64,000 bases of DNA from assembly GCA_013414765.1 (NCBI GenBank), contig CP058708.1, positions 615,553 through 679,552 of the forward strand, written 5' to 3'. The number at the start of each line of letters is the position of its first letter. Within the stretch, counting starts at the first letter, position 1. A program made the translations under genes and the position numbers. Source of the stretch: Candidatus Accumulibacter cognatus (lineage in GTDB: Bacteria; Pseudomonadota; Gammaproteobacteria; Burkholderiales; Rhodocyclaceae). This document shows, one piece after another, positions 45,794 through 49,327 of this stretch. Under the pieces are notes generated by a model that did no database searches, was not told where the DNA came from, and worked only from the letters and a program-made list of their open reading frames with translations.

Positions 45794-45821
45794 CAGCAAA
45801 GAAATATTTTTTCCTTTGCTG
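45794..45821. promoter_or_regulatory. Inverted repeat upstream of the bufferin operon
   Basis: CAGCAAAG (45794-45801) / CTTTGCTG (45814-45821) around a 12-bp AT-rich spacer, 97-124 bp before the bufferin precursor start. Could be an operator or a leader hairpin; no known regulator motif is recognised. Confidence 0.45.
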
Positions 45822-45917
45822 TAAGTAATTCTGCAATGCCAGCGTCTAAGGGATGTCAGAGAACTGGTTATAGAACGGCCAGCTTTGACTCAACCCATCC
45901 AATGAGAGGAGAATCAA

Positions 45918-46178
45918 ATGTCAAATCAACTGTCTGGTGTCGCTATCGCCGCTGCCGCGGCGGCCCTTTTTGCTACTGGCAGCATCATGCTCCCCAGCGT
46001 TCACGCCGCGGAAGGAGGCTCGGTACACTGTGCCGGCATCAATTCGTGCAAGGGCCATTCCGAATGCAAGACGGCCAAGAGCGAGTGCAAAGGAACGAAC
46101 GCCTGCAAGGGCCAGGGCTGGGTAACCAAAGCCAGCGCCAAGGAATGCACCGATGCGGGTGGCAAGGTCGTCAAGTAA
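45918..46178 (+). CDS. bufA2: Bufferin-type Cys-rich precursor (BufA2-like metallophore)
   Basis: 86-aa exported Cys-rich peptide. A Sec signal (AIAAAAAALFATGSIMLPSVHA) is followed by a repetitive core with six cysteines: VHCAGINSCKGHSECK, TAKSECKGTNACKGQG and AKECTDAGG. This matches the periplasmic bufferin type of copper-binding ribosomally made peptides, whose Cys residues are modified by a DUF692 iron enzyme. The two following genes encode exactly that enzyme and its partner. GAGAGGAG precedes the ATG at 45918. Confidence 0.85.
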   Translation: MSNQLSGVAIAAAAAALFATGSIMLPSVHAAEGGSVHCAGINSCKGHSECKTAKSECKGTNACKGQGWVTKASAKECTDAGGKVVK

Positions 46179-46253
46179 GCTTGCTGCCATGCGGCGTGAC
46201 CGGGCTGCCCATAGGCCAACGGTCACGCCCGAGGCCAACCTGCAGGAGAGGCG

Positions 46254-47087
46254 ATGCGCAACACCCTGAACGGCTTCGGCCTGGGCCTTCGTACTGAACA
46301 TTACCGGGATTTTGTCGAGTCTCCATGGCACGTGGACTGGCTTGAAATCATCTCCGAAAACTATCTCGTCGCGGGGGGCAAACCCCTTTACTATCTTGAT
46401 CGCATCCGCCGTGACTATCCTATGGTGATGCATGGTGTTTCGCTCTCGATTGGCAGCTGCGATGCACCTGATTCTGCGTACTTGCGGCAGTTGCGAGCAC
46501 TGGTCGACCGCGTTGAGCCGGCCTGGGTTTCGGACCATCTGTGCTGGACCGGAACCGGATCGTTGAACCTCCACGATCTGCTGCCACTGCCTTACACCGA
46601 GGCGGCCCTGCGGCAACTCGAGGCCCGCGTGGCCCAGGTACAGGAGGCTCTCGGCCAACCGCTATTGCTGGAGAACGTTTCCAGCTATGTGCGCTACCGC
46701 GCCGACGAGATGAGCGAATGGGAGTTCATCGACGAATTGGTCAGGCGTACCGGCTGTGAGTTGCTGCTCGACGTGAATAATGTCTACGTGAGCAGTGTCA
46801 ATCACCATTTCAATCCGCATACCTTCATTGATGCCATGCCGCTTACTGCAGTTCGCCAGATTCATCTCGCTGGACACGAGAAGCATGGCGGTTACCTCAT
46901 CGATACCCACGATCAACCAATTTGTGAAGCCGTCTGGGATCTGTACGCCTATACCGTTGGACGACTTGGTTCGATACCAACGATGATCGAACGCGATGAC
47001 AACATTCCGCCGCTCGCGGAACTCATCGCCGAACTCGACTGCGTTCGTGCGCTGGCACAGCGCATCCAGGCCAAACAGGCAGCATGA
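46254..47087 (+). CDS. bufB: DUF692 multinuclear iron-dependent oxidative enzyme
   Basis: 277-aa TIM-barrel enzyme of the DUF692/MNIO family (MbnB relatives) that modifies cysteines of the precursor peptide. Likely metal ligands are seen in [65 protein letters not shown] and [17 protein letters not shown] precedes the ATG. It overlaps the DUF2063 gene by ATGA. Confidence 0.9.
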
Positions 47088-47848
47088 GCACCCTGGCCGA
47101 TTTGCAGCAGCGCTTCCAACAGAGCATTCTGCTTGACCATCCGACTCCGGGTTTATTTGCTGCGGAGGGGGCGGTGCTGGCAGGAGGAATGAGCGTTTAC
47201 CTGCAAGCTTATCGTGCCCGCCTGACGGCGGCTCTGGCAGACAATTTCCTGGTTCTGCAGCGGGCGCTCGGTGATGACGCCTTTGCTGTTCTGGCGCATG
47301 CGTATATCGACGCGCACCCATCGCATTTCCGTTCGATTCGCTGGTACGGCCACAGGCTGGTGGAGTTTCTTGCTGCTGCCCCAGAGCGCTTGCCACATCC
47401 GGCGCTGCTCGACCTGGCACGGATGGACTGGGCAATGCGTACGGCCTTTGATGCTGCAGACGCCACCACCCTCACTGCCGACGATCTCGCTGCGTTGCAG
47501 CTTCAGGACTGGCCCCAACGGCGATTCACCCCCCTTCCCTCCTTGCAGATGATCGATCTGACGTGGTGTGTCGAGCCAATCTGGAAAGCACTCGATGCGG
47601 ACGCCGCAGCCACTAGCGAGGAACCACAACCATCGGTACATGTACTGCTGATCTGGCGGCCCACTCTCGATTGCTGCTGGCGGTCTTCCGATACCTGCGA
47701 AGCAGCGGCTCTGCGAGCCTTGACCCTGGGGGCCAGTTTCGCCGACTGTTGCACGGTGATTGCCGAATCCGGAGTACCGGAACCGGCGCAGACGGCTGCC
47801 GGTTTTCTTCAGCGTTGGATCGCCGAAGGTCTTCTCGCTAAGGATTGA
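47084..47848 (+). CDS. bufC: DUF2063 partner protein (MbnC-like)
   Basis: 254-aa protein: an N-terminal DUF2063 DNA-binding-like helical domain ([40 protein letters not shown]) and a C-terminal beta-rich part. In MNIO systems this partner binds the precursor leader and presents it to the DUF692 enzyme. Translationally coupled to it here. Confidence 0.87.
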
Positions 47849-47855
47849 GAGGAAC

Positions 47856-48065
47856 ATGCCAATACTCCCAGGAAACCCCATGACGACGAGGTGTACGGAC
47901 TGCGGCACGGCCTTTGTCTGCGGGGCGGTGGCCGGTCTCCCCAGTTGCTGGTGTATGAAAAAGCCGACCCTGTCCCTTGAAGCGAGTGCGGCGGCCACCG
48001 GCTGTTACTGCCCGGCCTGTCTGGAGCAGCGGCTCAGTGCTCAGACATCCGCTCAGGAAGCATGA
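47856..48065 (+). CDS. Cys-rich CWC-type small protein
   Basis: 69-aa protein with eight cysteines: RCTDCGTAFVCGAVAG, PSCWCMKKP and GCYCPACLEQRL. The SCWC core matches the cysteine-rich CWC family and probably binds zinc or copper. GAGAGGAAC precedes the ATG, 7 bp after the DUF2063 gene, so it is the fourth gene of the bufferin operon. The usual DoxX-like member is absent. Its 3' end overlaps nudB by 32 bp tail to tail. Confidence 0.75.
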   Translation: MPILPGNPMTTRCTDCGTAFVCGAVAGLPSCWCMKKPTLSLEASAAATGCYCPACLEQRLSAQTSAQEA

Positions 48066-48483
48066 GAATTGCGTCGCGGTTGCTCCACGAAAAACATTTC
48101 GCAGCCGCTTCCCGCCACGGCAGCCAGCAGTAACGCAAGTGCTCTTCGGCAGCAATGGTGACCGGCTGTGCTGCCGGAAGTAGCAAAGAGAAGACATGCT
48201 CGGTATTGTGCAGGACACCCGGAGCGTAACGATGTCGCCATTCGGCAAAAATCTCGTAGCGATTGCTGAGTTGCCAATCCACAAGACCCTCGGCGAGCAC
48301 CTTGATCCCGGTTTCCTCCCCGACTTCACGGATGGCAGTTGTCAGCAATGGCTCGCCCTCTTCCTGGCTGCCAGTCACGGACTGCCAGTAACCTGCATGA
48401 GTAGCGCGTTCGAGCAACAACACCTGCAAGTCCCGAGTATGGATCACGACCAGCACCGACACCGGCCGCTTGTATTGCTTCAT
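48034..48483 (-). CDS. nudB: Dihydroneopterin triphosphate diphosphatase (Nudix)
   Basis: 149-aa Nudix hydrolase of folate synthesis. It shows KRPVSVLVVIHTRDLQVLLL, the Nudix box with REVGEETGIK, and the family-type GYWQSVTGSQEEGE. The order aspS...nudB is common in betaproteobacteria. Its start overlaps the barstar stop (ATGA), making it the last gene of the aspS run. Confidence 0.9.
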   Translation of the reverse strand: MKQYKRPVSVLVVIHTRDLQVLLLERATHAGYWQSVTGSQEEGEPLLTTAIREVGEETGIKVLAEGLVDWQLSNRYEIFAEWRHRYAPGVLHNTEHVFSLLLPAAQPVTIAAEEHLRYCWLPWREAAAKCFSWSNRDAILMLPERMSEH

Positions 48484-48923
48484 GCCAGAGTCGGGAGAGC
48501 CGCCAGTCCGTCAGCACGGAGATCGTAAAATACCCACATCGGTAAGTCCTGCAAGCGCCATTCGGCAATGGCCGCGGCAAACACCTCGTTTACCGCGTGA
48601 AAAGATACCGGATCCTGGGCTTGCAGAATTTCAGCCCGGGTGATGATCAGGACATAACCAGCGGCTTCAAACCACGAAAAATCGGTCAGACAATCCTTGA
48701 GGGCATCAAGGTTGTGTCCGTACCACTCGGGCAAATCGAGATCCCGTCCGAGTGTCGAAAGGACGCTGTCGATGCAGTCAGAGTCGTCAAAACTGACGTC
48801 AAAACAGGCGAGGCCGGCCGCTTCCGCAGCCGCTTTGACAACCCTGTGAGCAGTCACAGGCAGATGGTAAATACCGGCCTGTGTTGCATCCACAAGCAAG
48901 TTCTGCAAGTCGTTCTGGCTCAT
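48480..48923 (-). CDS. Barstar family ribonuclease inhibitor
   Basis: 147-aa cytosolic protein. The barstar signature is clear at DLPEWYGHNLDALKDCLTDF, including the two Asp residues that contact the barnase active site in barstar. The chain is longer than Bacillus barstar (about 90 aa) with an N-terminal extension. It begins two bases after the RNase gene, so toxin and inhibitor are made together. Confidence 0.87.
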   Translation of the reverse strand: MSQNDLQNLLVDATQAGIYHLPVTAHRVVKAAAEAAGLACFDVSFDDSDCIDSVLSTLGRDLDLPEWYGHNLDALKDCLTDFSWFEAAGYVLIITRAEILQAQDPVSFHAVNEVFAAAIAEWRLQDLPMWVFYDLRADGLAALPTLA

Positions 48924-48925
48924 GG

Positions 48926-49327
48926 TTATTCGCGTATACGGCGGAAACTACGGTAATGATCATCAGTGTAATAGTACTCGCCGGAGTTGGCGACATCACC
49001 GTCGCGTCCCTCGCCGGCGATGATTCGTCGCGCGCCACGGTCGCGACTAGCCGGCGTCGGCACCGTATACTCTCGATAGTAGCCGCGCGGCTGCAATGGT
49101 AAGCGCTTCTCGAAATTTCCAAAAATGCTGCCATCCTTGCGCGGGTAAGGAAAGGGTCCGCCCTGCCGGATCAGACGCAGGGTCTGCAATGCCTCCGGTG
49201 GCAAATCGGCCAACGCGACGCTCGCCAGTGGCCTGGGTTCACGTGCCTGAGCCACGCCAAGCAGAGCACCGAGCAGTGCAGCCAGCAGCAATAGCCGCAG
49301 AAGAGTCACGATTTTCAGCACCTGCAA
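48926..49327 (-). CDS. Secreted barnase-like ribonuclease (N1/T1 family)
   Basis: 133-aa protein with a signal peptide (LLLLAALLGALLGVAQA) and a microbial guanyl-specific RNase domain. Compared with barnase, the catalytic residues are all present: Glu in GYYREYTVP, Arg in GARRIIAGE, and His in YYTDDHYRSFRRI; GNFEKRLP matches the guanine-binding loop. It follows the aspS stop directly. TTG at 49327 or GTG at 49321 may be the start; AAAGGG lies just upstream. Confidence 0.87.
   Translation of the reverse strand: MQVLKIVTLLRLLLLAALLGALLGVAQAREPRPLASVALADLPPEALQTLRLIRQGGPFPYPRKDGSIFGNFEKRLPLQPRGYYREYTVPTPASRDRGARRIIAGEGRDGDVANSGEYYYTDDHYRSFRRIRE

Follow-up and report, generated by a model that had tools for sequence, protein, structure and literature searches.

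Gene content of the bufferin-2 operon

Does a small eight-cysteine protein encoded directly behind a bufferin operon of Candidatus Accumulibacter cognatus belong to the bufferin pathway, or is it a neighbour of independent origin? The window, i.e., the whole 64,000-nt stretch of DNA that was analysed (contig CP058708.1, positions 615,553 to 679,552), contains four ORFs on the same strand between 45918 and 48065, and the four-gene arrangement described in the initial annotation is real, all four being present in the window's ORF list where it had placed them. The set is flanked by rpoH upstream and, beyond the fourth gene, by nudB downstream. Judged by matches to family models, the first three genes are a standard bufferin-2 operon in the order bufA2-bufB-bufC. 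The claim of a complete bufferin-type module, consisting of a BufA2 precursor, BufB, and a DUF2063 partner, likewise holds, as each family model is matched above its cut-off.

The bufA2 gene (45918–46178, + strand) encodes an 86-aa precursor with six cysteines, four Cys-Lys motifs, and a signal-peptide-like N-terminus, which is hydrophobic and shows a VHA-AE site when inspected by eye. It scores 93.7 bits against the NCBIfam BufA2 model NF050166 (cut-off 60), and six cysteines are present in all of the 17 genus relatives printed as well. The bufB gene (46254–47087, + strand) encodes the MNIO (DUF692) bufferin maturase, with 375.3 bits to PF05114 and 387.4 bits to the NCBIfam model NF050167 (cut-off 310). 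BufB can be aligned across most of its length with the solved DUF692 protein 3bww_A (E 1.7e-51), and the alignment takes in the HG, SDHL, EN, LDVNN, H(L/I)AGH, DTH, and ERD blocks, in which the metal ligands are presumably located. The bufC gene (47084–47848, + strand) overlaps bufB by 4 nt and encodes the DUF2063 partner protein (PF09836, 71.3 bits, cut-off 27.2); it reaches only 31.2 bits against the HvfC model NF050145 (cut-off 142), and its best match by sequence among solved structures has an E value of 0.55.

Bufferin 2 precursors have six or 12 conserved cysteines as a rule (PMC12452194), and the window shares with the Bufferin 2 cluster the six-Cys signal-like precursor, the MNIO, the DUF2063 partner, and the gene order, while it differs by having no DoxX gene at the locus and a CWC gene after bufC. 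According to the MNIO survey, the enzyme and its partner make Cys-derived thiooxazoles that sequester periplasmic copper, the direct evidence quoted there being for Buf1 of Caulobacter (PMC12452194). By family analogy, BufB and BufC would oxidise cysteines of the BufA2 precursor to thiooxazoles, probably those in the Cys-Lys motifs, and the modified peptide would be exported via Sec and chelate excess copper in the periplasm. The product of the operon is probably a chemically modified, copper-binding peptide. The related enzyme FonBC is reported to have failed to process an NACKG variant (PMC12668002), which indicates that differences between enzyme families matter for Cys-Lys motifs.

The CWC gene and its linkage to bufferin genes

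An eight-Cys CWC gene does lie directly downstream of bufC (47856–48065, + strand), as initially annotated. It encodes a protein of 69 aa without an evident signal peptide that scores 33.6 bits against PF14375 (Cys_rich_CWC, cut-off 24). The mechanically called ORF begins at a TTG at 47760, within bufC; the start is likely the ATG at 47856, which has GAGAGGAAC ahead of it and lies 7 nt past the bufC stop. The protein is 96% identical to the CWC of Candidatus Accumulibacter vicinus (DIME01000185.1). It shares the eight-Cys pattern with the PF14375 proteins above the curated cut-off and differs from them in nothing found except its position. A comparison with solved structures gave no convincing match (best E 0.25), and the AlphaFold2 model is weak (mean pLDDT 67.8, pTM 0.51). 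A literature text search found no mention of PF14375 and nothing on Accumulibacter together with DUF692. The MNIO survey does not use the terms "CWC", "PF14375", or "cysteine-rich" in its main text, and it describes extra conserved genes as occurring in extremely low proportions (PMC12452194). Expression tables for Sulfurospirillum list a CWC gene together with those for cobalamin synthesis (PMC7755780), so the CWC family has other contexts.

For the search of 57 CWC loci outside the genus, 32 MNIO sequences were combined into a profile, which matched every known MNIO locus used as a control (L071–L087). The 57 loci comprised 13 from family and order relatives, 35 from a class sample, and nine of 14 named loci, the other five being in the genus or duplicates. 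The profile found an MNIO gene in none of the 57 loci, several of which are cut by contig ends (the shortest is 3.3 kb). The class sample consisted of 274 genomes, 34 of which, including that of the window, carry CWC, and the 35 loci were drawn from the other 33. MNIO genes are common in this sample, being found in 170 of its 274 genomes, and of the 33 CWC genomes besides that of the window, 19 carry one somewhere; the missing linkage does not therefore result from a scarcity of MNIO. A crude screen for a conserved partner of CWC started from 48 loci outside the family, of which 11 were dropped since they gave no ORF by the CWC profile at E 1e-4. When ORFs within 5 kb were clustered in the remaining 37 loci, no conserved partner was found, the largest cluster spanning six loci and being ABC-ATPase-like by eye.

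Within Candidatus Accumulibacter, 28 genomes were compared, i.e., the window's own and 27 others. CWC occurs in 26 and bufferin-2 genes at the locus in 18; both are found in 17 genomes, CWC only in nine, buf only in one, and neither in one (G017), which corresponds to no association (Fisher test, p = 1). Of the 26 CWC-bearing genomes, 17 have an MNIO gene no more than 2 kb from CWC, and none is found nearby in G001, G007, G009, G010, G011, G014, G016, G018, and G022. Among these, the contig of G011 starts at CWC, and no MNIO was found anywhere in this 88% complete genome. The one genome with buf at the locus and no CWC, G027, has no PF14375 match anywhere, and a decayed CWC-like stretch can be seen by eye between its bufC and nudB. 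A conserved linkage of CWC with bufBC, which had been set in advance as the test of the initial annotation, was therefore not observed: in the genus it is limited to 17 of 26 CWC genomes, with no association. That CWC might mark MNIO clusters was rejected on the same grounds, MNIO being present in 0 of 57 loci outside the genus.

The spacing of the two genes is nevertheless tight. Wherever the genus has both genes (17 loci), an ATG, GTG, or TTG that could plausibly start CWC lies within about −8 to +11 nt of the bufC stop, the spacing of L050 and L057 being read directly from the sequence. The two genes overlap as ATGA in four loci (L034, L035, L036, L040), and the start is GTG in L037 and L047 and TTG in L051. 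Such a junction makes co-expression of CWC with buf likely in these 17 genomes. It is closer than mere neighbourhood requires and allows for a lineage-specific function, to which a small probability is given; no other observation favours the initial proposal more strongly. CWC could be a genus-specific bufferin accessory, for example, a cytosolic metal handler supplying iron to BufB or protecting the precursor, with translational coupling to bufC as the means of its recruitment. The close or overlapping junction in 17 of 17 loci and the eight cysteines, invariant across 45 aligned CWC rows, would fit such a role, which is nonetheless considered improbable given that nine genus genomes retain CWC without buf at the locus, one has buf without CWC, and no MNIO accompanies CWC in the 57 loci outside the genus. 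The same counts speak against the initial proposal of CWC as a new bufferin accessory or metal handler, and CWC does not appear to be a general component of bufferin systems. Tight operon spacing in one genus is by itself no evidence for a new pathway part.

Synteny and history of the locus

CWC has a more consistent neighbourhood on its other side. It is convergent with nudB (48034–48483, − strand), overlapping it by 32 nt; nudB encodes a dihydroneopterin triphosphate diphosphatase and matches NF006961 with 222.1 bits (cut-off 103). A barstar-like gene and an adjoining PF00545 ribonuclease gene (48480–49327, − strand) lie between nudB and aspS. The window and 25 other genus CWC loci all have nudB convergent with CWC and then barstar, ribonuclease, and aspS, and this order beside CWC holds with or without buf across the 26 loci, with the exception of L036, where the ribonuclease query gave no match. 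Outside the genus, the CWC-nudB-barstar-ribonuclease arrangement is found in eight loci (L058, L061, L089, L091, L093, L097, L098, L099), including records titled Azoarcus (L089) and Sulfuritalea (L091). Buf genes were not seen in these eight, although L061 and L097 give just ~0.5–0.6 kb upstream of CWC, which is where bufC would be expected. Several other Rhodocyclaceae-like loci share the barstar and PF00545 ribonuclease pair with the CWC loci of the genus.

Where genus loci lack buf, CWC is preceded by other genes or has rpoH only ~0.5 kb away (L046). Five of them (L033, L041, L048, L049, L053) have the rpoH-CWC interval filled with other genes, one of which carries several CxxCH motifs and looks like a multihaem cytochrome by eye.

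Taken together, it is very probable that in this genus the bufferin-2 operon sits between rpoH and an older CWC-nudB-barstar-ribonuclease-aspS locus, and that CWC, inherited vertically as a neighbour, does not serve bufferin specifically. CWC is now probably transcribed and translated behind bufC, and the bufferin pathway can probably do without it. Some loci give little sequence upstream of CWC, which slightly reduces the confidence in this reading. The gene families, their spacing, the synteny, and the absence of an exclusive CWC-buf linkage are established here; the co-transcription of CWC with bufABC is inferred, as are the modification, export, and copper role of the peptide. The result is mainly a correction: what looks temptingly like a four-gene operon consists of the usual three bufferin genes and a neighbour conserved by synteny.

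How the two parts came together is a separate question. In a genome of the same family, G029 (L077), bufABC adjoins nudB and CWC is absent, so buf may have been inserted, or an old block may have suffered losses. The two genes were followed on a quick AspS tree with 34 rows, in which 11 of 31 inner branches are weak; it left out G017, L091, L096, and L098, and L043 was counted among the buf-less loci although its contig is cut at CWC. On this tree, buf changes at least four times and CWC two times, and eight genus members with CWC and without buf form one clade (SH-aLRT 98). It has to be considered that the family inherited bufABC-CWC-nudB as an ancestral block and repeatedly lost either buf or CWC from it, leaving an old but eroded linkage. 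The G029 arrangement and the four or more changes of buf on the AspS tree would agree with such a history, but G029 has no CWC, buf was not seen in the eight CWC-nudB loci outside the genus, and the tree shows fewer changes for CWC than for buf; an ancestral block is accordingly regarded as unlikely. It concerns the history of the locus and can hold alongside the functional reading of CWC as a neighbour.

Promoter-like element upstream of bufA2

In the alignment of 18 bufA2 upstream regions of the genus, TGTAAGTAATT and GCGTCTAA stand out. They belong to an ECF-sigma-like element, TGTAAG-N17-CGTCTAA (45820–45849, + strand), located 68 nt before bufA2, which can also be read as GTAAGT-N16-CGTC. 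TGTAAG-N17-CGTCTA is present in 17 of the 18 bufA2 loci, i.e., the window and 16 of 17 others, and L034 lacks its first part. The element was found in none of the nine buf-less genus CWC loci, one of which is cut off at CWC. The exact pattern has one match in the genome and its reversed control none; a longer pattern with up to three mismatches has one match each for pattern and control, and a shorter variant has one match against four for the control. As the reversed controls match as often or more with the looser patterns, the case for the element is one of conservation rather than rarity. Two sigma-70 scan sites on the bufA2 strand were set aside together with the other sites of that scan, one of the two covering the ribosome-binding region.

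In a narrower form of the accessory proposal, a pre-existing cytosolic eight-Cys protein was captured in this genus only, by translational coupling, and donates metal to BufB or BufA2 or guards their thiols, under a dedicated ECF-type promoter that was found just once in the genome. The probability of such a capture is considered very low, and the reading of CWC as an inherited neighbour is preferred here as well.

A sigma factor presumably reads the element at 45820–45849. The format of GTAAGT-N16-CGTC resembles the sigmaF sites of Caulobacter crescentus, GTAACC-N16-CGAA, which precede the sigmaF-dependent DUF2282-DUF692-DUF2063(-DoxX) genes of that species (PMC3511200). The same enzyme and partner families are thus involved, whereas the sigmaF-dependent precursor is a DUF2282 protein (Buf1) (PMC3511200) and that of the window is BufA2. 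The two systems further differ in that no NrsF anti-sigma factor was found in the genome of the window. In the MNIO survey, sigma-factor genes were found in Buf1 clusters and not in those of Buf2 (PMC12452194). In the genome, Sigma70_r4_2 has 13 matches, 12 of them over the cut-off; GTAAG-N17-CGTC is absent from their ~3.1-kb loci, and one loose GTAAC-type match occurs in L139. The conserved promoter-like element offers a concrete handle on how bufferin-2 operons are switched on.

DoxX and other MNIO loci

The initial annotation also reported that the usual DoxX-like gene is missing, which proved correct: bufC is followed by CWC and then nudB, rpoH lies upstream, and DoxX was not found at the window's bufferin-2 locus. 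DoxX is listed in the survey as a core gene, but in varying combinations (PMC12452194), and is not strictly defining for Bufferin 2 on that account. The genome holds a second, separate MNIO locus of the Buf1 type (L072, 7070–9845; C1, ~3.961–3.964 Mb), which consists of an MNIO gene, a DUF2063 gene, a DUF2282 precursor gene, and DoxX. At this locus, the precursor gene comes after the enzyme genes instead of before them.

In G029, two MNIO genes lie ~1.6 kb apart beside nudB (L077, ~6.6–10.8 kb), one of them within the bufABC set. By eye, the stretch upstream of its bufA2 resembles the last part of a DoxX gene, and the locus possibly contains a Buf1 and a Buf2 set in tandem.
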